DNA of 64,000 nt. It comes from a virus. Shown in pieces: positions 1,614-14,760 of the stretch. The translations under genes were made by a program, and so were the position numbers. The stretch spans positions 62,001 to 126,000 of the IMG/VR virus record IMGVR_UViG_3300042691_055965. One strand, written 5' to 3'. Under the pieces are notes generated by a model, which was not told the DNA's origin, ran no database searches, and was given only the letters and a program-made list of their open reading frames with translations. The number at the start of each line of letters is the position of its first letter. Positions within the stretch are counted from its first letter, which is position 1.

Positions 1614-3425
1614 ATGGGAGCATTATTAGAATCAGGTCTTGTTGGTAACATCGGTCTTAAGCACCTTAAAGTTATCAAAGAAGATACAATTAACAAATGG
1701 GATAAATTAGGATTCCTAGACGGTCTTAAAGGACACATCAAAGAGAACATGGCACAATTATATGAAAACCAAGCGTCTCACCTAATTAACGAAGCCGCGT
1801 CAACTGATAGTTCAGGTTCTTTCGAAACTGTAGTTTTCCCTATCGTTCGTCGTGTATTCTCTAAATTGTTGGCTAACGACATCGTTTCTGTACAAGCAAT
1901 GAACTTACCTATTGGTAAATTGTTCTACTTCGTACCTAAAATCCAAGGTTACACAACTGCAAATCCTACCACAAGTGCAATTCACAACCAACCAATTGGT
2001 GCACCAGGTTCAAACGCAACTACTAACACTGGATATAATGACGGTACACAGTACGCTAAAAATCTTTATGATTTATTTTACGAAGGGGCTGAAGCTGGAT
2101 TAGATCCTCCAGGACTTTTCGATTATTCTAAAGGAAGATGGACTGCTGTGACTTCTCCTACTACTACAGTTTCTTGGAGTAATGGTAATTTAGTACCTAA
2201 CGAAACTGATTATGAAACAACAGGAGTAAGAAAAGTAATTATCAAAATGTGTGGTTTCTATGACGCTGGTGTTGGTAAACTTATGGGTCCTGATGGTTCT
2301 GAAATCGATACTGAAGCATTCCTTTCTGATTTAACAATCACTAAAGGTGCTGGTTTAGGTGTAAGTGCTGACTCACCTTGTACAGTAGGAACAGGTTCTT
2401 TATTATTTAGAGTTGTTACTCAACAATATGGTAAAGGTATTGTTAGTCCTACTTATTCACAAGTATCTACTACATTCCCTAACGGAAATGGTGGTTCTTA
2501 CGATAACATTTGTGATCAAGATGGTTGTATTTTCCTTGAAGTGGATCTTTCTTGTCCTGTATGTGCTGACTGTAACGCTACTTCACTTGATGGTTACACA
2601 GGAGCAACCCTTTCTGCTGTGACTTCAGGAACTGCATTTTCTGCAACTTATAGAAGATATGCGGAACTTGAATTTGAAGATGCTATCGGTGAAGTTTCTT
2701 TCGACCTTGAGTCAGTTACTGTATCTGTAACAGAAAGAAAATTAAGAGCACAATGGTCTCCTGAATTGGCACAAGACGTTTCTGCATTCCACAACATTGA
2801 TGCTGAAGCTGAATTGACAGCTTTATTGTCTGAACAAGTTGCTGCAGAAATCGATCGTGAAATTTTACGTGACTTACGTAAAGGAGCGGCATGGAACCTT
2901 CGTTGGGATTACAACGGATGGAGAAGAATTGCTAACCAAACTTCTTACACTCAAAAAGACTGGAACCAAACTTTGATTACAGCAATCAACCAATTGTCAG
3001 CACAAATCCACAAATCTACTTTAAGAGGTGGTGCTAACTGGATCGTTGTATCTTCTGAAGTTTCAGCAATCTTTGATGATTTAGAATACTTCCACGTATC
3101 TAATGCATCTCCTGAGCAAGATCAGTATAACATGGGTATTGAAAGAGTTGGTACTCTTGCAGGACGTTATCAAGTATACCGTGATCCTTACTTCCCACCA
3201 AACCAAGTTTTGATTGGACACAAAGGAACATCGTTACTTGACACAGGTTATGTTTACGCACCGTATGTACCTCTACAATTAACACCTACAATGTACAATC
3301 CATTCAACTTCACACCTATCAAAGGTATTATGACAAGATACGCTAAGAAAATGGTTAATAACCGTTTCTACGGACGTATCACAGTTGATGGTGTACGTAC
3401 ATTCGATTTAAGAGAATTGAGATAA
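1614..3425 (+). CDS. Major capsid protein, T4 gp23-like
   Basis: At 603 residues it is somewhat longer than T4 gp23. The C-terminal third carries the most recognisable gp23 family features: a Tyr-Val-Pro-Leu-Gln segment near residue 550, then a Met-Thr-Arg-Tyr segment and a final Arg-rich strand. The N-terminal 60 residues look like the propeptide removed by the prohead protease, with a candidate (I/L)xE cut after Glu60 (HLINE, then AAST). The middle (about residues 140-350) is Thr/Ser/Gly-rich with a CPVCADC cluster and may be a surface insertion domain. It has no Shine-Dalgarno site; an A-rich tract precedes the ATG. A strong terminator follows, so it ends the head operon. Confidence 0.92.
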   Translation: MGALLESGLVGNIGLKHLKVIKEDTINKWDKLGFLDGLKGHIKENMAQLYENQASHLINEAASTDSSGSFETVVFPIVRRVFSKLLANDIVSVQAMNLPIGKLFYFVPKIQGYTTANPTTSAIHNQPIGAPGSNATTNTGYNDGTQYAKNLYDLFYEGAEAGLDPPGLFDYSKGRWTAVTSPTTTVSWSNGNLVPNETDYETTGVRKVIIKMCGFYDAGVGKLMGPDGSEIDTEAFLSDLTITKGAGLGVSADSPCTVGTGSLLFRVVTQQYGKGIVSPTYSQVSTTFPNGNGGSYDNICDQDGCIFLEVDLSCPVCADCNATSLDGYTGATLSAVTSGTAFSATYRRYAELEFEDAIGEVSFDLESVTVSVTERKLRAQWSPELAQDVSAFHNIDAEAELTALLSEQVAAEIDREILRDLRKGAAWNLRWDYNGWRRIANQTSYTQKDWNQTLITAINQLSAQIHKSTLRGGANWIVVSSEVSAIFDDLEYFHVSNASPEQDQYNMGIERVGTLAGRYQVYRDPYFPPNQVLIGHKGTSLLDTGYVYAPYVPLQLTPTMYNPFNFTPIKGIMTRYAKKMVNNRFYGRITVDGVRTFDLRELR

Positions 3426-3451: not shown

Positions 3452-3479
3452 AAGGGGAATGTAAATTCCCCTTTTTTTG
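3452..3479 (+). terminator. Rho-independent terminator after the capsid gene
   Basis: An 8-base stem, AAGGGGAA paired with TTCCCCTT, encloses a 6-base loop and runs into a T tract, 26 bases after the capsid stop codon. Confidence 0.9.
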
Positions 3480-3627: not shown

Positions 3628-5679
3628 ATGAAAAGAGTATTTTTAACAATCGCAACAACTTTAACAATGTTAACCACATTCGCTCAAAATAGAGTATGGG
3701 TTACAATTCCAAACATTGAGTCAGTAAGAACTGAACTACAAACACTAAACATTACTTCTGTTGAAAAGGCGTTTCCATCATCAAAAAGTCAAACACTTCA
3801 AAACGTATATGAATTACAATCAAATGTAAGTTCTACAGTTATTGTTGAATCACTTAAAAAAAGAAACGATTTGTTTGTGAACCCTGAAGTGGGTCCTGAC
3901 TATCAAACACTAGAAACTCCAAACGATTATAACACTGTCGTTCCAAATCAGTGGGCACTTGATATGATTGGTTCAAAAGAGGCATGGGATTACACAAAAG
4001 GTTCAACTGTGACTATTGCTATTACTGACGCTAACTTTTACGTTAATCACGAAGATTTAACAGGAAAATATGATTACATTACATTAAACAATACAAACAC
4101 GAACTACGGACATGGAACTGCAGTTGCTGTAATTGCAGGTGGAAATACTAATAACACTGTTGGAACTTCATCTATTGGTTATAATTCAAGATTACAACTA
4201 AGAACAATGTCTTATAATGAAATGCTTGATGCCACATATTCAGGAGCTAAAGTTATAAACGCAAGTTGGGCATCTTCTTGTTCTTTCAATTCATATGCTC
4301 AGATGGTAATTGATGAGGTTTATTCTAACGGAACTGTAATTGTTGCTTCAGCAGGAAATGGTTCTACTTGTGGTGGTTCTTTTAATCTTGTTTATCCTGC
4401 TTCATACAACCACGTAATATCTGTTTCATCTGTGGGGTTTGCAAATAACCACGAAAGATTCATGGGAGACCCAAACACAACTCACCAACACAATTCAATG
4501 GTTGATATTTGTGCACCAGGATATGACGTTCCATTAACTACTTCACCTGGGGTATACGTCACAGGAAATGGAACTTCATTTGCATCTCCTTTTGTTTCAG
4601 GAACTGTCGCTCTTATGTTATCTGTTAATCCTTGTTTAACTGTTGATAATATTGAGTATATCTTAAAAGAAACCGCAAACTCTGATATGTATTTAATTAA
4701 CCCAAATTATCAGGGATTACTTGGAGCAGGAACATTGAATTCTCATTTGGCTGTGAAAATGGCAAAAGAATTCAACACAATCAGTGGAACATTCAAAACT
4801 AATGTTGATTGTGTGTCAGGAGATAAGATTGTATCTGTATTGAACCTTGACGGAACAACACCTTATAACTATGAATGGATGAATGGTGATATTAACGAAA
4901 CAATTTCAGTATCAAACGACGGGTTTGTTTTAGTTCAAATTGTTGATTCGAATGGTTGTAGATTTACTGATTCAGTTTATGTTGAAAAATACGAAAAAAT
5001 TACAAGTGAATCTTTGGTTTCTGACGTAAAATGTTTTGGGATGTCAAATGGTGAAATTTCTGTAAACATTTCAGGTGGTGAATTTGTATCTGATGCTGTA
5101 TGGAATAACGGTGTTGTTGGTAACACTTTAACAAATTTAACTTCAGGTAATTATATTTTTACAGTTGTTGATGGATTTGATTGTGTTCACTCTGACACTT
5201 TAAGTGTAAGACAACCTGAACTACTTGTATCAAACATAACTTCTGTGAACCCTACAATCACTTCTGATGGTTCAATTAACATTACAGTTAATGGTGGAAC
5301 ATTACCATACACTTACGAATGGAACAATGGTGACACAACACAAAACTTAAATAATCTTTCTGAAGGATTCTATGAACTTCTTGTAACAGACGCAAATGGT
5401 TGTATGACTTCTGAGAATACAATGTTAAACACCCAAAATACCTCATCTGTGAGTGAATTAACTTCAAATGAACTACTTGTATACCCTAACCCTTCAAATG
5501 GTTCTGTAACGATTAAAACAGGTAAGGATGATGATTGTAACTTAACAATCACAAACATCAACGGACAAATTGTTGTAACTCAATCTACCTTTATCGGTGA
5601 GGTGTCTGTAAGTGATTTATGTGAAGGTGTTTACCTTGTGACAGTAAATAATGTAACTCAAAAGTTAGTTGTTAAGTAA
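3628..5679 (+). CDS. Secreted subtilisin-like (S8) protease with SprB repeats and T9SS sorting domain
   Basis: The 683-residue protein starts with a signal peptide, probably cut after Ala19. A subtilisin-type catalytic domain spans about residues 110-385, with Asp134 (in AITDAN), His162 (in YGHGTAV), oxyanion Asn244 (in SAGNG) and Ser317 (in GNGTSFASP), so the full catalytic set is present. Three SprB-like Ig-type repeats follow (about 385-605), each ending in a GxYxxxVxD pattern. The C-terminus from YPNPSNG (Tyr619) to the end is a type A T9SS sorting domain, known in Bacteroidota to direct export and surface attachment. It is unexpected in a phage. It probably acts outside the cell; the substrate is unknown. 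Confidence 0.88.
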   Translation: MKRVFLTIATTLTMLTTFAQNRVWVTIPNIESVRTELQTLNITSVEKAFPSSKSQTLQNVYELQSNVSSTVIVESLKKRNDLFVNPEVGPDYQTLETPNDYNTVVPNQWALDMIGSKEAWDYTKGSTVTIAITDANFYVNHEDLTGKYDYITLNNTNTNYGHGTAVAVIAGGNTNNTVGTSSIGYNSRLQLRTMSYNEMLDATYSGAKVINASWASSCSFNSYAQMVIDEVYSNGTVIVASAGNGSTCGGSFNLVYPASYNHVISVSSVGFANNHERFMGDPNTTHQHNSMVDICAPGYDVPLTTSPGVYVTGNGTSFASPFVSGTVALMLSVNPCLTVDNIEYILKETANSDMYLINPNYQGLLGAGTLNSHLAVKMAKEFNTISGTFKTNVDCVSGDKIVSVLNLDGTTPYNYEWMNGDINETISVSNDGFVLVQIVDSNGCRFTDSVYVEKYEKITSESLVSDVKCFGMSNGEISVNISGGEFVSDAVWNNGVVGNTLTNLTSGNYIFTVVDGFDCVHSDTLSVRQPELLVSNITSVNPTITSDGSINITVNGGTLPYTYEWNNGDTTQNLNNLSEGFYELLVTDANGCMTSENTMLNTQNTSSVSELTSNELLVYPNPSNGSVTIKTGKDDDCNLTITNINGQIVVTQSTFIGEVSVSDLCEGVYLVTVNNVTQKLVVK

Positions 5680-5714
5680 TAACACTTAATCATTTTAATA
5701 ACAACTACTGAACT

Positions 5715-5779
5715 TCAAAATACCTACCCTCCGAAAACAGGATTTAACAACATACATCACCTATATATTTGTAGAAACA
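5715..5779 (+). promoter_or_regulatory. Promoter/leader copy 2, with TATATTTG -7 box
   Basis: TATATTTG at 5764-5771 is a perfect match to the Bacteroidota housekeeping -7 consensus TAnnTTTG. A weak -33 element (TTT at 5743-5745) lies 18 bases upstream. The whole block resembles 3549-3614. Confidence 0.55.
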
Positions 5780-5810
5780 AAAAATAACTAACAATTAAAA
5801 AATAAAAAAA

Positions 5811-6638
5811 ATGAAAACAAAAATTTTAAACACAATTCTTTTTACACTTCTAACAGTTGTAACATTCGCACAAACTAAAGTACCTTTCAATCTTGGGGTT
5901 TCTCAAACTAACCCAACTTGTGTTAACTTTTCTGATGGTGAAATTACCGCACTTCCTTCAGGTGGTTTTCCTCCTTATACTTACCAATGGAGTAATGGTG
6001 ATACCACTCAAACGATATCAAATCTTTCGGCAGGAAATTATTCAGTAACTGTAACAGATTCTTACAACAGTACAATCGCAGCATTTCTTACAGTTGACAA
6101 TCCACTTCCTATCACAATTTCAGGAACACAATCAAATGTAACTTCTTTTGGTTTGTCTAACGGACAAATAGATATTGTAGATATTTCAAATACAACAGGT
6201 TCATTTACTTACCAATGGTTTACTGCGGGTGGTAGTTTTCAAAACCAAGGTAATTTAGACCAACAAGGATTAACTTCAGGTTATTATAAAATAATGGTTA
6301 CAGATTCTATTGGTTGTGTAGGAATCGGTTATTTTACAATTTCACAACCAAACCCATCATTACCAACTCTTAACAATCCTAACTTGATTAGTCCAAGTAT
6401 TTCTAACAACACATCAGCCATTTCAACTTATCCAAACCCATCAAATGGTAATTTCACAATAGAGACTAAAGAAAATGTAAGTGAAATTAGAATTGTGAAT
6501 ACAATCAATGGTGAAGAAGTTTATAACGACAAATCATCTTTATCAAAATTATATGTTGATAATCTTAAAACAGGTATCTATATGATTTATGTAACAACAG
6601 AAAAAGGAACAGAAACAAAAAGAATAACTATACTTTAA
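5811..6638 (+). CDS. Secreted SprB-repeat protein with T9SS sorting domain
   Basis: The 275-residue protein has a signal peptide (cut after about residue 20, TFAQ), two SprB-type repeats (about 28-100 and 100-180), and a type A T9SS C-terminal domain beginning at YPNPSNGNF near residue 205. SprB repeats occur in the flavobacterial gliding adhesin SprB and in many surface proteins, where they form stalks. No enzymatic domain is visible, so it is probably a surface-attached adhesin or coat. It follows the protease gene and carries its own copy of the leader. The next gene is a close paralogue. Confidence 0.82.
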   Translation: MKTKILNTILFTLLTVVTFAQTKVPFNLGVSQTNPTCVNFSDGEITALPSGGFPPYTYQWSNGDTTQTISNLSAGNYSVTVTDSYNSTIAAFLTVDNPLPITISGTQSNVTSFGLSNGQIDIVDISNTTGSFTYQWFTAGGSFQNQGNLDQQGLTSGYYKIMVTDSIGCVGIGYFTISQPNPSLPTLNNPNLISPSISNNTSAISTYPNPSNGNFTIETKENVSEIRIVNTINGEEVYNDKSSLSKLYVDNLKTGIYMIYVTTEKGTETKRITIL

Positions 6639-6660
6639 TAATTAAAATAAAAAAAAGAAC

Positions 6661-7257
6661 ATGAAAAATTTAATCATCACATTAGCATCATTATTTTTAA
6701 CGGTATCTGTATCATTTTCACAACAGATGTCATTACAAACAACCAAAATAGACCCATCATGTAACGGGTACAATAACGGAGAAATTATTATTGATATAAC
6801 AGGAGGTGTTGAACCTTACACAATAAATGGTTTACAGATAAATGGAACTCAGTTTATTGCAACTAATTTATCTGGTGGACAATATGTTTTTGATGTAACC
6901 GACTCTAATTTGAGTTCTTCAGTTGCTACTTTAACATTGACAGATCCACAACCGTTGGTAATACAAATATTAAAAACTGACGTTACGACATTTGGTGGAA
7001 ATAATGGTTCTGCGGATGTCACAATATTAAACGGTACTGCTACATATAATTGGACTGGCAATGGCTCAGGTATTATCCCAAATCAAGAAGATCAATTTTT
7101 GTTAACGGCAGGAATATACAATATTGAAATAACGGCGATTGATGGTTGTGTGTATAATAAGAGAATTATAATCGATCAACCATCCGCAAGTGGTTTTCCG
7201 TCTTCATATAACCCTAATACACAAGGTTTTCAACAAAATACAATTTCAAACAATTAA
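6661..7257 (+). CDS. Secreted SprB-repeat protein lacking a sorting domain
   Basis: The 198-residue paralogue of the preceding gene begins with a signal peptide and two SprB-like repeats. It ends in an Asn/Gln-rich linker, exactly where the neighbour continues into its T9SS domain. No further in-frame sorting domain follows the stop at 7257, and a terminator comes 64 bases later. It may be released into the periplasm, or be a trimmed duplicate. It lies 22 bases downstream of its paralogue and is probably cotranscribed with it. Confidence 0.75.
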   Translation: MKNLIITLASLFLTVSVSFSQQMSLQTTKIDPSCNGYNNGEIIIDITGGVEPYTINGLQINGTQFIATNLSGGQYVFDVTDSNLSSSVATLTLTDPQPLVIQILKTDVTTFGGNNGSADVTILNGTATYNWTGNGSGIIPNQEDQFLLTAGIYNIEITAIDGCVYNKRIIIDQPSASGFPSSYNPNTQGFQQNTISNN

Positions 7258-7320
7258 AAATAACAAAGTCGAAAAAAGAATAATAATTCTTTGATTATTG
7301 TTGGTTCCACAAAAAAGAAA

Positions 7321-7346
7321 TCCCCCAAGAATTTGGGGGTTTTTTA
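7321..7346 (+). terminator. Rho-independent terminator after the SprB-repeat pair
   Basis: CCCCCAA pairs with TTGGGGG around a short loop, followed by seven Ts. Confidence 0.9.
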
Positions 7347-7404
7347 ATTTAAAATTAACATTGTTTTCTTATATTTTTGATACTTATAATTAAAAGGTCA
7401 TATA

Positions 7405-8361
7405 ATGAAAAATTTATTGTTAATGTTTGCGTTAATGGTTTCGCAAATTCTATCTTCCCAAACAACCATCTATTCTGAAAATTTTGGTACAGTAACTTCT
7501 AACACTTCTGTCAGTTCATTTAATGGTTGGCAAAATTCAAGCCCAATTACATACACAGGAAATGTAGATGTAAGGAGGACACAACCATCTTCACCAACAC
7601 CAAATGATGACAATGCTAATGTTTTTTTTACAAATTCCACACCAAGAAGTTTTACAATTTCAGGAATCAACACATCAACGTATTCTGAAGTATTTTTAAC
7701 ATTAAATCATTTCAAAAGTACAATAGCTGGTAATAATGAATTATTAATACAAGTTAGTTCGGATGGTATTAATTATACAACTTTATCTTATAGTCGTCCA
7801 ACTGGAGGTGGAACGGCAATATGGAGATTAATAAGTCCATCAGGAACAATTCCAATTACTAATAACTTAAGAATTAGATTTACTCAAACATCAACATCAA
7901 CTCAATTCAGAATTGATGATATAACATTAACAAGTCCTGTATCTTTGCCTGTTGAACTCACATATTTTGATGGTGTAAAACAAGATGGTTTTAACTTATT
8001 GAAGTGGCAAACGGCATCAGAATTTAATTCAAGTCACTTTATAATCGAAAAAACAACCACAGGTGATTTTAAAAATTCAACAATTGTTGGAAATATTTTG
8101 GGTTCAGGATATTCACAAAACATTATAGATTATGATTTACTTGACATGAAAGTAGAAAATGTAATTAATTACTATAGACTTATTCAATACGATTTTGACG
8201 GTAAAACAAAAGTATATCCAATAATAGCAATTGATAACAGACATCAAAAAGAAGTCGAAAAAATTGTTGATTTGTCAGGTAAAGAAGTTAACGAATATTA
8301 TAAAGGGATAGTTATCATTTATTATAAAAATGGTGAATTTGTTAAAACTTATCAATATTAA
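7405..8361 (+). CDS. Secreted adhesin-like protein with T9SS-associated C-terminus
   Basis: The 318-residue protein has a signal peptide (about 18 residues) and a beta-rich lectin/MAM-like region (about 20-175). It then has the LPVELTYFDG module typical of flavobacterial T9SS cargo, with an LKWQTASE segment and an NYYRLIQYDFDGK segment. The last 35 residues resemble a shortened sorting domain (DLSGKEV, then GIVIIYYKNG). The start is preceded by TTAAAAGGTCATATA, a context nearly repeated before the gene at 8554. No catalytic motif is seen. Surface binding is inferred from architecture. Confidence 0.75.
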   Translation: MKNLLLMFALMVSQILSSQTTIYSENFGTVTSNTSVSSFNGWQNSSPITYTGNVDVRRTQPSSPTPNDDNANVFFTNSTPRSFTISGINTSTYSEVFLTLNHFKSTIAGNNELLIQVSSDGINYTTLSYSRPTGGGTAIWRLISPSGTIPITNNLRIRFTQTSTSTQFRIDDITLTSPVSLPVELTYFDGVKQDGFNLLKWQTASEFNSSHFIIEKTTTGDFKNSTIVGNILGSGYSQNIIDYDLLDMKVENVINYYRLIQYDFDGKTKVYPIIAIDNRHQKEVEKIVDLSGKEVNEYYKGIVIIYYKNGEFVKTYQY

Positions 8362-8387
8362 TTATTAACTGTTAAATATTAAACAAG

Positions 8388-8417
8388 AAGGGGTGTATGA
8401 TAATTCACCCCTTTTTT
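8388..8417 (+). terminator. Rho-independent terminator
   Basis: AAGGGGTG pairs with CACCCCTT around a 10-base loop and is followed by a T run. Confidence 0.9.
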
Positions 8418-8452
8418 GGTATTTTCACTACGTATTTTTACGTATATCTTTC

Positions 8453-8460
8453 TATTTATA
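8453..8460 (+). promoter_or_regulatory. Candidate phage late promoter TATTTATA with long leader
   Basis: TATTTATAGTAAA here matches the sequence at 50333 exactly, and both have TTACGTATA six or seven bases upstream. The next long gene starts 93 bases later, so the transcript would have an unusually long, GC-richer leader containing a short reading frame. Confidence 0.5.
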
Positions 8461-8479
8461 GTAAAGACACGACCGGCCC

Positions 8480-8557
8480 ATGGTAGATGGGGGTTCCACC
8501 ACAAGGTTCTTCAAGTGTGACTTTAGTTTTAAACCCACAAAATTAAAGGTCATATGA
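8480..8557 (+). CDS. Possible 25-codon leader peptide overlapping the next gene
   Basis: ATG at 8480 opens a 25-codon frame (begins MVDGGSTTRFF). Its TGA overlaps the start of the next gene as ATGA (8554-8557), a classic arrangement for translational coupling. The region is distinctly richer in G and C than its surroundings. It could equally be untranslated leader RNA, and nothing identifies the peptide. Confidence 0.3.
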   Translation: MVDGGSTTRFFKCDFSFKPTKLKVI

Positions 8558-10545
8558 AAAAACTTGCATTACTCCTATTTACGTTATTAGTAAATTTTAA
8601 TCTACTTTCACAATTTTGTTCAACAACAGGTCTTGTGAATATGGGTGTTATTACACCAACAGGGACATTCCAAAATGTGTCAAACGCATCATCAGCAAAA
8701 AGGTATTGGAGATTCACGGCAACAGCTGGATGTACTTACGATTTTTCTACTTGTAATAGTGCGTTTACAAATGATACATATTTAAGACTATACTCAACCG
8801 CTACAGGTGGAACTGTATTGGCTCAGAATGACGACAACGGTCCGTTTTGTGGTGGAACAAAGGCATCACTTACTTGGGTTTGTCCTGCAAATGGAACGTA
8901 TTCAATACTTGTTACAAATTATAGTTGTGCAAATCTAAGTGCAACAACAATATTAAGTTACAGAGTCACTTGTGCTCCTGTATATAATCCTTGTTCTTCG
9001 ATTACAACAATTGCAAGTTGTGGAACTAATGTTTCTACAACAATGTCAGGTGGAGGGGCAGGGTGGAATGTCAGTACCTGTGGATTTTCAACACCAGGAC
9101 AAGAAAGAATATTCCAATTCACACCTACTCAGACAGGAACATATACTCTTAATGTGACATCAATCACAGGAGGATACGTTGATTTCTTTTGGAAACCTGC
9201 GTCAGGTGGGTGTGGTAGTACAGGGTGGAACTGTATTGATGACATTAGCTTTACAGGAAGTTTTAATGGAGTAACCCCAATGACATTTACTGCTGGTGTT
9301 ACATATTATATTCTTTTAGACCCTGAAACAACAGGTACATATAATGTAACATTTAATTTGGGTTGTCCAATTGTTGCACCTGCTAATGATTTAATATGTA
9401 ATGCGACTACAATTACTTGTGGTTCATTAGTCGGGGGAACTACTGTGGGTTCAACCCTAACAGGTGCAGGTGAAGGAGGTTCTTGTGGGACCACACAAAC
9501 GACGGGAGGTGTGTGGTATAAAGTTGTTGGCACCGGAGATGTAATGACCGCATCTCTGTGTGTCACAGCTTGGGACAGTAAGATGTCAGTGTTTCAAGGT
9601 TCTTGTACAACACCTGTTTGTGTAGGTGGTATAGATGATAACGGACCGTCGTGTACGGGGACTGCAGCATCGTATTCTTGGACTTCAACACCAGGTGTAA
9701 CATATTTTATACTTGTACACGGATATAGTACAACATCAACTTTTAGTTTAGCATTTACGTGTTCACCTCCACCACCACCAGGTCCTTGTTTGAATACAAC
9801 AGCTTGGAGTGTAGAAAACCTACCAACAACCACAACACCTGACGTAACCACATTGTGTTCAGCGGGTAATGGACAATACACAGATGAATATAGCCAATGG
9901 AATAATGGTGTTGCTGGAGTAACTTATACTGTATTATCAAGTATACCTACTGATTGGGTTACAGTTACAGTTTCAACACCTAACGGAACAGTCGTTTCTT
10001 ATGGTTCATCTCCTTTAGATTTTACGGCATCAATAAATGCAACTTACTATGTTCACATAAATGCAAATGGGTATTGTTTAGATGATGCTAATTGTAGAAA
10101 CGTAACAGTATCAAGAATAAGTGCGTTACCAATAGAATTAATAAGTTTTGATGGTGTTAATAATGGTAGTAGTAACTTATTATATTGGTTAACTGCTTCT
10201 GAACACAACAATAACTATTTTACCTTGGAAAGGTCTAATGATGGTGAAAATTGGGAAGAAGTGACAAAAATAGTTGCCGCAGGGCAATCAACACAAGAAC
10301 TTTCTTATTCATATTCAGATGAAACATTTTCAAGAAATATGATTAATTATTATAGACTTTCACAAACTGACTATGATGGAACTACTGAATTTTTTAACAT
10401 AGTGTCTTTAGATAATACACTTTCAAATAAAAAAGTGGTAAAGTATATTAATATTACAGGACAAGAAATTGATGTTATGTCTGCAACAGGTGTTTATTTC
10501 AAAGTTTATGATGACGGTTCAATGAAAAGAGTTTATAAACAATAA
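8554..10545 (+). CDS. Large secreted protein with pre-peptidase-like domains and T9SS-associated C-terminus
   Basis: The 663-residue protein has a signal peptide (about 19 residues) and Cys-rich beta-sandwich repeats resembling bacterial pre-peptidase C-terminal (PPC) domains. Each repeat carries an LxxYS-type strand, a DDNGPxCxGTxAS loop and a TYxILVxxYS strand (around residues 30-145, 150-265 and 275-410). A Pro-rich linker (PPPPPGPC) and another beta domain follow. The C-terminus repeats the LPIELISFDG module of the gene at 7405 and ends in a short sorting-like tail. No protease domain is present. Binding to glycans or cell surfaces is a reasonable inference. Confidence 0.75.
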   Translation: MKKLALLLFTLLVNFNLLSQFCSTTGLVNMGVITPTGTFQNVSNASSAKRYWRFTATAGCTYDFSTCNSAFTNDTYLRLYSTATGGTVLAQNDDNGPFCGGTKASLTWVCPANGTYSILVTNYSCANLSATTILSYRVTCAPVYNPCSSITTIASCGTNVSTTMSGGGAGWNVSTCGFSTPGQERIFQFTPTQTGTYTLNVTSITGGYVDFFWKPASGGCGSTGWNCIDDISFTGSFNGVTPMTFTAGVTYYILLDPETTGTYNVTFNLGCPIVAPANDLICNATTITCGSLVGGTTVGSTLTGAGEGGSCGTTQTTGGVWYKVVGTGDVMTASLCVTAWDSKMSVFQGSCTTPVCVGGIDDNGPSCTGTAASYSWTSTPGVTYFILVHGYSTTSTFSLAFTCSPPPPPGPCLNTTAWSVENLPTTTTPDVTTLCSAGNGQYTDEYSQWNNGVAGVTYTVLSSIPTDWVTVTVSTPNGTVVSYGSSPLDFTASINATYYVHINANGYCLDDANCRNVTVSRISALPIELISFDGVNNGSSNLLYWLTASEHNNNYFTLERSNDGENWEEVTKIVAAGQSTQELSYSYSDETFSRNMINYYRLSQTDYDGTTEFFNIVSLDNTLSNKKVVKYINITGQEIDVMSATGVYFKVYDDGSMKRVYKQ

Positions 10546-10566
10546 ATTTATAAACTTTCAGATATT

Positions 10567-10574
10567 TATTTATA
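10567..10574 (+). promoter_or_regulatory. Candidate late promoter TATTTATA
   Basis: The octamer ends 13 bases before the ATG at 10588, the same spacing as at other proposed late promoters in the window. Confidence 0.55.
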
Positions 10575-10587
10575 AATCCACATTTTA

Positions 10588-11307
10588 ATGGACTTAAATA
10601 ATATAATAAAAAAAGTAGTTAAAGAAGCAAATTCCGATAGGTATGCCGGTTCATATAACGGACCTTTGTCTATGGGTGAAATCGATTGGGGTAAACAAGA
10701 ACTTGGACCTTTCGATACTAAAGTATCTAATTTCTTCAATGCCGAATTAGAATATGATAGTTATGACGGTTCATTAGATATGAGTAAAAAAAAGGCTAAA
10801 AGTCTTGAAACTAAAGCCAAAAAAATATCTTTATATAACAAAAAACACAAAACACCTAACGACGAAGATGGTGGAATAATAAATCAAACACCAGGTAAAA
10901 ACTTGAAGTTTGTTCCATTAAAAGAATGGGTTGATTTGGATTCAATTGTTTTAAATGAAGATTTGGCAGTATGGTTTGGAACAAAAAAGAAAGGTAAAGG
11001 TACTAAACAACCACAAGGTCCTTGGGTTAACATTTGTAGGAAAAAGAAAGGTGGAGGACATCCACCGTGTGGTAGACCTGAAGGTGAATCGAAGGGTTAT
11101 CCTAAATGTAGAGCCGTAGGTGTTGCAAGAAACATGACAGATGTACAAAAAAGAGCAGCATGTCAACAAAAAAGAAAAGCGGAAAAACAAGATACACAAA
11201 CAGGAAAAGGACAAAAACCTGTAATGACATCATATAAACCAAAAAAGAAAAGAACTCAAAAGGAATCTGTTGATTTTCTTGTAAAGAGTATTTTATCTAT
11301 TCTTTAA
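10588..11307 (+). CDS. Basic DUF5872-like protein, possibly head-packaged
   Basis: The protein has 239 residues. The C-terminal half is strongly basic and carries the pattern PWVNICRKKKGGGHPPCGR, then a GYPKCR segment and a K/R-rich tail. I recognise this as the DUF5872-type motif seen in marine phages. Its role is unknown. The N-terminus MDLNNIIKKVVKEA nearly matches that of the protein at 11622-12083 (NNIIKKVLME). It ends in xxE, which fits a T4-style capsid-targeting peptide removed by the prohead protease. Packaging is inferred from that. A TATTTATA box precedes it, and its end overlaps the convergent gene by 4 bases. Confidence 0.6.
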   Translation: MDLNNIIKKVVKEANSDRYAGSYNGPLSMGEIDWGKQELGPFDTKVSNFFNAELEYDSYDGSLDMSKKKAKSLETKAKKISLYNKKHKTPNDEDGGIINQTPGKNLKFVPLKEWVDLDSIVLNEDLAVWFGTKKKGKGTKQPQGPWVNICRKKKGGGHPPCGRPEGESKGYPKCRAVGVARNMTDVQKRAACQQKRKAEKQDTQTGKGQKPVMTSYKPKKKRTQKESVDFLVKSILSIL

Positions 11308-11582
11308 TTTAACTTTTTTTCTAATAATTCATATCTGATTGTTATTGGATTTTCATCAATATCTATTGAATCGTAAGTAATCAAGGTATTTTGATATGTT
11401 CCATAACCACAGAATCCTTCGTCATGTCTGACATTAGTTCCTTTATTAATTTCAATTCTTTTTCTGACTTCATAATTAATTTTTTTATCAGAAGAAAAAA
11501 CTTCAATATCGTGAAAATGAAACCGATTATCAATTTTAGAAAGTCCTCCAGTTCTTAACACATATACTTTTCTGTTCTTCAT
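11304..11582 (-). CDS. Small unknown protein
   Basis: The 92-residue protein has no recognisable motif. It contains several aromatic and His residues (FHFHDIEVF) and a basic patch. The start context AAATAAATTTATATGAA is identical to that of the glycosyltransferase at 30903-32420, which supports translation. It is convergent with the gene at 10588 and lies 39 bases downstream of the gene at 11622. Confidence 0.5.
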   Translation of the reverse strand: MKNRKVYVLRTGGLSKIDNRFHFHDIEVFSSDKKINYEVRKRIEINKGTNVRHDEGFCGYGTYQNTLITYDSIDIDENPITIRYELLEKKLN

Positions 11583-11621
11583 ATAAATTTATTTGTTGAA
11601 GAACAAAGATAATAAAATTTT

Positions 11622-12083
11622 CTAACAATACGTACCTGAACAACGTTTTTTTCCGTCAAGACCTTTGATTTTTCCTTTACACACCTGAACTGCGTAACCA
11701 TTTGCATATGCCGAAGGGTAAACATCAAATTTTGCTTTTGCTGCAGATTTACCTCTAGCACATAGTTTTGTTCCTGTTTTTTTTCTACCTTCCATCATTA
11801 CCTCATCATCTTCCATATCCATTTCAGATGACATATCACCACCTTTCATTTCGTTCATTAGAAAATCAAAAACTTGATCCATGTTGTTTTTTGCTTCTGC
11901 AATATGGTCTTGAGCCCAATCATGTCCGTGATCTAAAATTTGTTCAATTTCAGATTTGTCCATCTCCAATAATGTTTCACATTGTCTTTTCATTTGTTCA
12001 AGATTTGAAAAGAACATATATCTTTGTGATTCTTGACGGGTTTCCATCAATACTTTTTTGATGATGTTATTAATATTTTTCAT
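11622..12083 (-). CDS. Small Cys/Lys-rich phage protein, possibly head-packaged
   Basis: The 153-residue protein has an acidic Met-rich centre (residues about 80-100). Its C-terminal motif runs KLCARGKSAAKAKFDVYPSA, then YANGYAVQVCKG and a final Cys pair. This recurs in phage proteins of unknown function and is related to that of the protein at 10588. The N-terminus MKNINNIIKKVLME matches a capsid-targeting peptide ending in an LxE protease site. It lies 3 bases downstream of the fibre gene at 12087 and is probably expressed with it. Confidence 0.6.
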   Translation of the reverse strand: MKNINNIIKKVLMETRQESQRYMFFSNLEQMKRQCETLLEMDKSEIEQILDHGHDWAQDHIAEAKNNMDQVFDFLMNEMKGGDMSSEMDMEDDEVMMEGRKKTGTKLCARGKSAAKAKFDVYPSAYANGYAVQVCKGKIKGLDGKKRCSGTYC

Positions 12084-12086
12084 AAG

Positions 12087-12713
12087 TTAAGAATTTAATC
12101 CTCTAGGTCCACCAAGAACTATCATATTTAGTTGTGTTACATCAGTACCAAAACCGTCAGTCCACACTGGGTTAGGTGGTGTAATTTGATTTATTGTACT
12201 ACCTGTCGCACCACAATCACAACAAATCACACATACGGTTGCTTCTGTATTTGCACTTCTTGGAATATCACTTTCACAATCAGAACAGCTCACAAATGGT
12301 CCGGCTTCAGGAAAATAATTGTTTTCATCAGGTAAATCTTCTTTTCCATCTATAAATGTAGCACAAAAGAATACTTCATTTTCAGAAAATTGGAATACCT
12401 CATCTTTTCTTGGGTTACTACCATAAACTTCACAAAAACCACTTATACTGTATAAAAAAGTTGTCCCGTCACAGTTTTGAAATTCCAAAGATTGTAAAGT
12501 ACCGCCCGTGAAACAATCACAACAATCAGTATAAGGGTGTGAATAAGAATATAACGGTATGGGTTCATCTTCAGTTACAGATATAACTGTACCACAAATT
12601 TCTGATTCTTCGCCAAAGTTAAAACCAATAACTTCAAGAGGTGATAGTGTTGTAGATGCCGATACAATATACTCTAAACCATCTAAACAACCTTCTACAA
12701 TATAATTTGCCAT
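12087..12713 (-). CDS. Cys-rich fibre/tip protein with shared C-terminal module
   Basis: The 208-residue protein starts MANYIVEGC, like the protein at 53476 (MANFIVQNC), and contains CxxC pairs (CCDC, CSDC) spaced as in the neighbouring 671-residue protein. The final 60 residues (PRSANTE, CCDCG, GSTI, VLGGPRGLN) are about 70% identical to the end of that neighbour. The shared end may be an attachment or folding tag. A TATTTATA box lies 13 bases upstream. It is probably a virion surface component; its receptor is unknown. Confidence 0.6.
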   Translation of the reverse strand: MANYIVEGCLDGLEYIVSASTTLSPLEVIGFNFGEESEICGTVISVTEDEPIPLYSYSHPYTDCCDCFTGGTLQSLEFQNCDGTTFLYSISGFCEVYGSNPRKDEVFQFSENEVFFCATFIDGKEDLPDENNYFPEAGPFVSCSDCESDIPRSANTEATVCVICCDCGATGSTINQITPPNPVWTDGFGTDVTQLNMIVLGGPRGLNS

Positions 12714-12744: not shown

Positions 12745-14760
12745 TTAATTATTCAATCCTCTCGGACCACCAAGTACCACCATATTCATTTGTGTCACAT
12801 CAATGCCATATTGATCGGTATATACTGGATGTGGTGGTGCCACTTGTGTTATTGTACTTCCTGAAGAACCACAATCACAACAAACGACACATATTAAAGT
12901 TTCTGTATTTGCACTTCTTGGAAATCTTGTGTTGTCAAAAGCACATTGGATACAATTATAATATGTCGATACGGGGGTTATAGTTGTGTAATTTGGTTCT
13001 AATGGACAATTATTTAATAAAATATAACATTGTCCATAATTTTGAGTCACAAACACTAATTGTCCGTCTGTATAAGCCATTATATTCCAAATATCAATTG
13101 GGATATTAACAAACTGTTGGTTTCCACCACCACATTTGACAATAGATGCACCAATTAATGTTCCAGTATTACACGTTGCACAATCATCAAAAGGAGTCAA
13201 CGTGTTTGAAATATAAGCAATACCACTTCCACCAACATACGTGTAGGGTGACAATAATTTTTGACACTGAAATTCCGAGGTTCCTCTTAATACCTTTACG
13301 TAATCACCTGTTGTAAATGAATTTGAAGTTAATACAACAATGTTATTGTAACCAGTTCCACACTCTTCAGTTAACCAAATATAATAATTATCGGCATTTG
13401 CTTGACATTCTGTGCAACTTTCAAAAACTTCGAAACTTGATACAGCATAATATGCATCATTAATTTCAATACCTGTGATTTCAACACAATCATTAAGTTG
13501 TGGGACATAAAATATTTTACCTATTGGGTTTTGAACGTATTTATACGAAAAAACAGTACCTGTAGTTGAAATACTTGTTACTTCTATAATAAATGGATTA
13601 ACACCACCAAAAGGAGGTGATGAAATCGATATAGTATCACCAACTTGATATCCAATACCACCAAAAAAACCTATATTCAAAATACTACCACTCTGAACGG
13701 TTACGTCAAAATAAGCACCTACACCATTACCATCTGTTGTGCCTGTCAGATTAAGATATTCTCCATCTAATAATCCTACACCCGTGTCATAAGTTATGTT
13801 TCCAATCGGACCTGTATTAGTACAACTCGAATAAGAATAATATAAACCATTACATTGAATACATTCTTGACAATCAGGTTGTGGATCGAAGTTTAAAAAA
13901 GTATTTATTGTTACTGCCGATTCTGTCAAATCGCCCACTTCAAAACACCCATCGATGGTAGAAAGATTTGATACTTCATTTCCTTCGTAAAACACAGAAC
14001 CCCATACAACTTCGTCTTGTCGGGTTAAACAATTTGTTATAATTCTTTTTTCGTTACTAATTGCTAAACAATCTTCACAAGTAACTTCAAATTTTGTACC
14101 TAAAACAGAAACTAACGTTCCGGATGTTTCGGTGCCTTCTTGAATAACATCAACAATCCCACATTGTATATCACCAAAACTATCAATAAAAGTCACTACA
14201 TAATTGGTATAATCAAAACCAAGAGGAAATGCAATCAAGTAAGTGGTAGTAGGTTCCAAACAAGTATTTACCGAATAAACTGAAAAATTATTGGTTAAAC
14301 ATTCAGTGCAACCCGTATACGAATCACTTATTGATGCCAAAGAATAAATAAAATCACCGTCTCTTGGTGTAACAAAACATTCAATAGTTGCGCACAACGT
14401 TTTAATACTATCTTCTAATGAAAATGACAAATAATATATATCATCAATTGTCGGAAGAGTTGTAAAAGTATTAATGTCAATAAAATAAGTTTCACCTCTT
14501 ACACAATCAACAACACTTACCGCTGTTGTAATGCCGCTCAAACATTCTTCACAAGATGTGTAAGAACCATCAAGTGTTGCATTTACTATTTGTTCAGTAT
14601 CTTTTATTATTAATACAGTATAACAATCCGTAGTATTTGGTTCAGTTAAAAGTGTAAATAAATAGGTATTTCCTGTTGTGATTGCACTAACTCGGTCGTC
14701 AACTATAATATTTATTACCGAATCGCCACAACATTTTTGAACTGTTAAATCTCTTGACAT
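12745..14760 (-). CDS. Multi-domain Cys-rich fibre protein (CxxC repeats)
   Basis: The 671-residue protein is built of about six or seven degenerate repeats of 70-100 residues. Each is bounded by a CxxC pair (CEEC, CTEC, CEDC, CQEC, CTEC, CATC, CIQC) with further single Cys between. The same domain occurs once in the protein at 53476. A Gly-rich insertion lies near residues 330-390. The C-terminal module is shared with the protein at 12087. The CxxC pairs may bind metal or form disulfides outside the cell. It lies 3 bases from the gene at 14763 and is probably a tail fibre. Confidence 0.65.
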   Translation of the reverse strand: MSRDLTVQKCCGDSVINIIVDDRVSAITTGNTYLFTLLTEPNTTDCYTVLIIKDTEQIVNATLDGSYTSCEECLSGITTAVSVVDCVRGETYFIDINTFTTLPTIDDIYYLSFSLEDSIKTLCATIECFVTPRDGDFIYSLASISDSYTGCTECLTNNFSVYSVNTCLEPTTTYLIAFPLGFDYTNYVVTFIDSFGDIQCGIVDVIQEGTETSGTLVSVLGTKFEVTCEDCLAISNEKRIITNCLTRQDEVVWGSVFYEGNEVSNLSTIDGCFEVGDLTESAVTINTFLNFDPQPDCQECIQCNGLYYSYSSCTNTGPIGNITYDTGVGLLDGEYLNLTGTTDGNGVGAYFDVTVQSGSILNIGFFGGIGYQVGDTISISSPPFGGVNPFIIEVTSISTTGTVFSYKYVQNPIGKIFYVPQLNDCVEITGIEINDAYYAVSSFEVFESCTECQANADNYYIWLTEECGTGYNNIVVLTSNSFTTGDYVKVLRGTSEFQCQKLLSPYTYVGGSGIAYISNTLTPFDDCATCNTGTLIGASIVKCGGGNQQFVNIPIDIWNIMAYTDGQLVFVTQNYGQCYILLNNCPLEPNYTTITPVSTYYNCIQCAFDNTRFPRSANTETLICVVCCDCGSSGSTITQVAPPHPVYTDQYGIDVTQMNMVVLGGPRGLNN

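Follow-up and report, generated by a model that had tools for sequence, protein, structure and literature searches.

A capsid-adjacent gene island of a T4-like jumbo phage encodes a complete subtilase and other predicted substrates of the host type IX secretion system

Cargo proteins for the type IX secretion system (T9SS) have already been found in phages. Cryophage, a Bacteroidetes phage with a 76-kb circular genome, carries several variable genes with T9SS type A C-terminal domains (CTDs), its cargo including endoglucanase, GH39 and PA14 proteins; its authors already proposed that the phage hijacks the T9SS of its host and excludes superinfection, and the available portion of the paper names neither a protease nor a slot next to the capsid gene (Bellas et al. 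2020, PMC7468147). In crAss-like cluster 2 phages, which belong to another phage lineage, proteins with T9SS sorting domains are encoded 5' of the head section; BACON-domain proteins are described there, and the accessible text reports no protease (de Jonge et al. 2019, PMC6949934). Here we describe a cassette of five genes directly behind the capsid gene in the IMG/VR virus record IMGVR_UViG_3300042691_055965 (229,188 bases). We analyzed positions 62001-126000 of this record (64,000 nt, the window), to which all coordinates below refer unless stated otherwise. Like Cryophage, this virus encodes proteins with T9SS CTDs, and its cargo varies between relatives, but judged by its Gp23 the source virus is a T4-like jumbo phage with a genome of 229 kb or more, its cargo consists of a subtilase and SprB-repeat proteins, and the cargo genes lie in a conserved slot behind the major capsid protein (MCP) gene and have phage-type promoters. 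The closest bacterial counterparts are T9SS subtilases of Flavobacteriales, with 40-50% identity over 419-655 residues to the product of the first cassette gene; in one metagenome-assembled genome (MAG), the full-length relatives have a type A CTD as well. Those are bacterial genes, whereas the phage copy stands among phage structural genes. What is new is the clade-conserved slot adjacent to the capsid gene, the recurrence of subtilases in it, the phage-type promoters, a link to a cultured phage, and a short C-terminal tail. Our literature search found no paper joining huge phages with T9SS.

The cassette comprises five consecutive open reading frames (ORFs) on the plus strand, all in frame and directly 3' of the MCP gene, with products of 683, 275, 198, 318, and 663 residues; we name the genes by their first position. 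The preliminary description of this region had assigned signal peptides to all five, and Sec-type signal sequences are indeed predicted at each N terminus by a heuristic (K/R start, hydrophobic core, and Q-type cleavage). The first gene (3628..5679, + strand) encodes a predicted secreted subtilisin-like protease, in which a signal peptide and a propeptide-like region precede an S8 domain (residues 125-353; PF00082, 96.9 bits), SprB repeats (PF13573), and a type A CTD (residues 618-683). This CTD scores 40.6 bits with TIGR04183 and 43.9 bits with PF18962, both above the curated cut-offs (23 and 27 bits, respectively; 35 bits for TIGR04131). Residues Asp-134, His-162, Asn-244, and Ser-317, previously taken for a retained active site, align with the active site of the Bacillus AK.1 protease and provide the Asp/His/Ser triad and oxyanion Asn of family S8; as far as sequence can tell, gene 3628 encodes a complete subtilase with its catalytic residues intact. 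The second gene (5811..6638, + strand) encodes a predicted secreted SprB-repeat protein (PF13573, 62.7 bits), also with a type A CTD (residues 207-274; PF18962, 51.4 bits; TIGR04183, 37.7 bits), and the type A assignment made earlier for both products is borne out. Gene 6661 (6661..7257, + strand) encodes a signal peptide and two SprB repeats (PF13573, 33.5 bits), with no sorting domain by TIGR04183 or PF18962. The preliminary description called its product a truncated SprB-repeat protein. No CTD remnant exists in any frame before gene 7405, and the product is predicted to be either periplasmic or a truncated copy. The term adhesin, also used before, has its sole basis in the SprB/FN3-type repeats.

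The last two genes, 7405 (7405..8361, + strand) and 8554 (8554..10545, + strand), encode predicted secreted proteins that share an FN3-like domain, marked by an LPVEL motif, and a C-terminal tail of 44 residues. The tail of the gene 7405 product belongs to tail family A2; that of the 663-residue gene 8554 product scores 67.6 bits to A2, and the protein has relatives in the same slot of other contigs. The LPVEL end had been read as T9SS-associated, and we could not substantiate it as a T9SS domain. Neither product matched TIGR04183, TIGR04131, or PF18962 in profile searches, and the hhalign profile-profile comparison of the tail with the type A CTD gave a probability of 4.8%, leaving kinship statistically unsupported. 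A model of the last 154 residues of the gene 8554 product (predicted local distance difference test score, pLDDT, 85) has just the FN3-like domain followed by three strands; a single-sequence model of the whole product was unusable (mean pLDDT 36). In most bacterial relatives of the LPVEL domain, a canonical YPNP-type CTD comes next, and a minority, from Fluviicola and other Crocinitomicaceae/Flavobacteriales MAGs, end like the phage proteins with the 44-residue tail.

This tail follows the pattern '..VvK.iN.lGQEV....kG..i.vY.DGt..k..r' and lies 0-4 residues before the stop codon at all loci inspected. It is present in 1-12 copies per genome in ten T9SS genomes, each of which has at least 64 type A CTDs. 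Among 80 genomes assigned to the Fluviicola family, 44 have it, compared with 1 of 118 in a phylum-wide sample, namely the centre genome itself. A sorting tail would behave in this way, and we consider it probably to be one. Found on numerous secreted proteins from Crocinitomicaceae and other members of the Flavobacteriales (loci L282-L310), it may be an overlooked and undescribed sorting signal. Its distribution suggests hosts among the Crocinitomicaceae or their close relatives, and the phage of the window is predicted to infect a T9SS-bearing freshwater member of the Bacteroidota, probably of that family. A search with a profile of tail plus FN3 domain returned 275 viral relatives, and among the best 80 of these, 59 adjoin capsid or right-flank genes. 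Genes 7405 and 8554 also have in common an AATTAAA(A)GGTCAT box directly 5' of the start codon (7380-7404 and 8535-8553); none of the other genes scanned in the contig has it.

The cassette is bordered by phage genes on both sides. On the left is the gene for the Gp23-like MCP (1614..3425, + strand; PF07068, E 4e-74), for which we found 80 relatives with 74-88% identity; the nearest named phages by this protein include Microcystis phage Mel-JY01, at 43% identity, and, at 41%, Flavobacterium phage immuto. On the right is a conserved phage gene of unknown function (10588..11307, + strand), which is found 3' of the MCP gene in 48 of the 80 related contigs. Further along, the window holds genes for a DNA polymerase and for a tail-spike/structural protein. 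The same region is present on two more IMG/VR contigs (142.7 and 62.9 kb), 99.9-100% identical from the MCP gene through the cassette to gene 10588, and the three assemblies differ solely in the repeat number of the gene before the MCP gene, in an indel of 15 nt within gene 8554, and in one substitution. The variable repeats, at 654-770, are tandem copies coding for MDEEEEFEGMY.

The interval that runs from the capsid gene to the homologue of gene 10588 is here called the slot, and we compared it across the 80 contigs found by capsid protein. The 48 closed slots measure 303-8256 nt (median 2.5 kb) and are rich in ORFs with signal peptides according to the same heuristic (28 of 108, against 29 of 723 elsewhere on those contigs; Fisher P 4e-12, a value that serves as a guide only given that related contigs are non-independent). 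Non-enzymatic FN3/CUB/repeat proteins are the most frequent slot products. Besides subtilases, the slots hold short-tail proteins with CUB, GEVED, or FN3 domains, an M54-type metalloprotease, signal-peptide Endonuclease_NS proteins, and HNH-like genes, the last in 11 of the 48 closed slots. Because homologues fill the same slot in so many other contigs, the cassette is no chance pattern. The signal-peptide DNA/RNA non-specific endonucleases, in the slots of loci L025, L031, L057, L072, and L089, have no sorting domain and are possibly a periplasmic defence against incoming phage DNA. A hydrophobic protein of about 159 residues (L049:7189-7668 and relatives), probably spanning the membrane several times and without a Pfam or PHROG match, is encoded directly 3' of short-tail cargo in all 22 loci that have it, and is a possible partner of that cargo.

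Subtilases occupy the slot in 9 of the 80 MCP contigs and fall into at least two very different lineages, the type of the window and L014 and, in L057, L072, and L089, one that is 25-27% identical. In the tree, the window gene and the L014 group stand apart with bacterial sequences in between, which favors two origins, yet one origin for these two is not rejected (approximately unbiased test, p-AU 0.185), and only the L057/L072/L089 type is clearly separate. Bacterial S8 relatives of gene 3628 reach 60% identity over the catalytic part and 40-49% over nearly the full length. The cassette genes resemble host genes, and we take them to be borrowed from hosts.

The promoter-like boxes around the cassette are of phage type. 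The box TATTTATA is strongly enriched immediately 5' of the genes of this phage, most copies beginning 10-30 nt ahead of the start codon, a placement much like that of the T4 late box. In a motif scan, plus-strand copies lie 101 nt 5' of gene 8554 (8453..8460) and 5' of the right-border gene 10588 (10567..10574), and a promoter-like box with one mismatch to it, TATTTGTA, lies 5' of gene 5811 (5766..5773). Terminator-like hairpins followed by a T run, also on the plus strand, are found 3' of the capsid gene (3454..3478, GGGGAATgtaAATTCCCCTTTTTTT, read from the intergenic sequence), of gene 6661 (7322..7345, CCCCCaagaatttGGGGGTTTTTT), and of gene 7405 (8390..8417, GGGGTGtatgataattCACCCCTTTTTT). 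Across slots, TATTTAT occurs upstream of 17 of 25 cargo genes within 70 nt before the start (110 nt for gene 8554), whereas shuffles gave 2.8 on average and at most 8. Together, the boxes and hairpins make it most likely that the phage transcribes the cargo during the lytic cycle, probably at a late stage.

In the reading that we think probably right, a T4-like jumbo phage carries the cassette as a cargo island, the products of which are exported through the host Sec and T9SS pathways and remodel the surface of the infected cell. The phage would transcribe the island in the lytic cycle, and the Sec signal peptides would carry the products to the periplasm. The host T9SS would then move the proteins with type A CTDs, the subtilase and the SprB-repeat protein, to the cell surface or the medium, a step that we hold to be very probable; the short-tail products of genes 7405 and 8554 would probably take the same route, on somewhat better than even terms, whereas the gene 6661 product, having no CTD, would remain periplasmic. 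At the surface, the protease and repeat proteins would most likely cut or cover host adhesins and receptors displayed by the T9SS. The receptor of flavobacterial phages is likely the gliding machinery, including SprB and RemA (PMC7345892). Such cutting or covering would block superinfection and prevent renewed adsorption of progeny to cells and debris; in relatives, incoming DNA could also be destroyed by a periplasmic nuclease. Of the roles previously suggested, shedding of surface layers, superinfection blocking, and biofilm spread may apply, and we rank remodelling of receptors and surface first, as most likely; that its purpose is a barrier to superinfection or re-adsorption is a more tentative proposal, which may well turn out otherwise. 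The earlier idea that the phage uses the host T9SS for its cargo stands as to the phage-encoded cargo, the intact protease, and the predicted Bacteroidota host, but not as to the LPVEL end, which is not a recognized sorting domain.

Several points weigh against this explanation. Gene 3628 itself has no TATTTAT box, and the signal peptides rest on a heuristic. The shared ancestry of close relatives means that the slot statistics overstate independence. TIGR04183 matched in only 1 of 50 related contigs searched, and most have no T9SS domain at all; hence the slot proteins of these relatives, if surface-bound, need the short tail or another route. The domains, the active site, the phage origin, the conserved slot, its variable signal-peptide content, and the promoter boxes are observed; actual export, its timing, the host, and the purpose are inferred. 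The same parts also suit a role in nutrition or in biofilms.

That last role is the strongest of the alternatives, although we regard it as rather unlikely. The island could be a kit for auxiliary metabolism or biofilm release, in which the secreted protease and nucleases digest extracellular protein, DNA, and matrix to feed the cell or spread progeny. The subtilases, M54-type metalloprotease, and secreted Endonuclease_NS in the slots would suit such a kit, as would the resemblance of the host relatives of the protease to ordinary secreted degradative enzymes and, in the part of the Cryophage paper available, glycoside hydrolases with T9SS CTDs (PMC7468147). However, late-type promoters and a position amid structural genes would leave little time for a gain from foraging, and the commonest slot products are non-enzymatic. 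It is improbable that the cargo genes are passive passengers, host genes brought in by homing endonucleases or recombination and functionless for the phage. HNH genes in closed slots, the highly variable content, and the nearly empty slots of some relatives (303 nt) would be expected of passengers, but the reading frames and active site are intact, the promoters are of phage type, unrelated subtilases were acquired in the same slot, and the small membrane protein, where present, is always directly behind short-tail cargo. Slightly less credible still is the proposal that the repeat proteins are Hoc-like head decorations with Ig-like repeats encoded behind the capsid gene. PHROG 2973 (Hoc-like) does match gene 5811 weakly (E 1e-6), and the MCP gene is adjacent, but the SprB match is far stronger, a protease of the same layout lies alongside, and signal peptides with C-terminal T9SS domains would take these proteins out of the cytoplasm, where heads assemble; the decoration of released particles suggested in the preliminary description is disfavored on the same grounds. 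Finally, a chimera of phage and host contigs, to which the host-like appearance of the cargo genes might point, is in practice refuted, since three separate assemblies agree and homologues fill the same slot in relatives, and the segment is phage DNA.

The preferred explanation, export of cargo through the host T9SS, has parallels elsewhere on the contig and in other phages. A type B T9SS protein (CHU_C/TIGR04131, with SprB and PKD domains) is encoded outside the window at record positions 6775-8985 and scores 43.8 bits, against a cut-off of 35; each of the three related records longer than 200 kb likewise has type B CTDs, and three phages of 634-642 kb have type A CTDs. The type B gene is followed, within 6775-12277 of the contig, by two sensor histidine kinases, one of GAF-PAS-HATPase type and one with a signal sequence, which are unusual in a phage. 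In the cultured Flavobacterium phage immuto (MW353175), the stretch at 9.9-13.4 kb encodes a signal-peptide nuclease, a C-type lectin, a hypothetical secreted protein, and a cohesin protein that ends in a TIGR04183 domain. Immuto, also T4-like, has in this way a cluster of signal-peptide cargo that includes a TIGR04183 protein, and its nuclease shares 54% identity with the one in the slot of relatives of the window phage. It differs in that the cluster is not behind the MCP gene, the stretch read contains no subtilase, and the annotation makes no mention of T9SS. Of the remaining window, two neighboring minus-strand genes (12087-12713 and 12745-14760) have alike C termini (CCDCG..GSTI.Q..PP.PV.TD..G.DVTQ.NM.VLGGPRGLN), and no RNA families were found in the window.

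Phages usually alter the host surface through small membrane proteins or lipoproteins. The lineage described here instead seems to use the type IX machine of its host to put enzymes and adhesin-like proteins outside the cell. We suggest, as a bolder and still doubtful generalization, that a widespread T4-like clade may maintain, behind its capsid gene, a dedicated export island that is expressed late, and may repeatedly refill it with host surface proteins, unrelated subtilases among them, partly via an undescribed 44-residue sorting tail, so that the surface would be proteolytically rebuilt before lysis. Given that immuto and Flavobacterium sp. LMO8 form a cultured pair with a comparable cassette, the idea is testable. 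Because the flavobacterial T9SS displays the gliding adhesins that are the presumed phage receptors, such an island, if the explanation is true, would give the phage a direct handle on superinfection and on the control of release.

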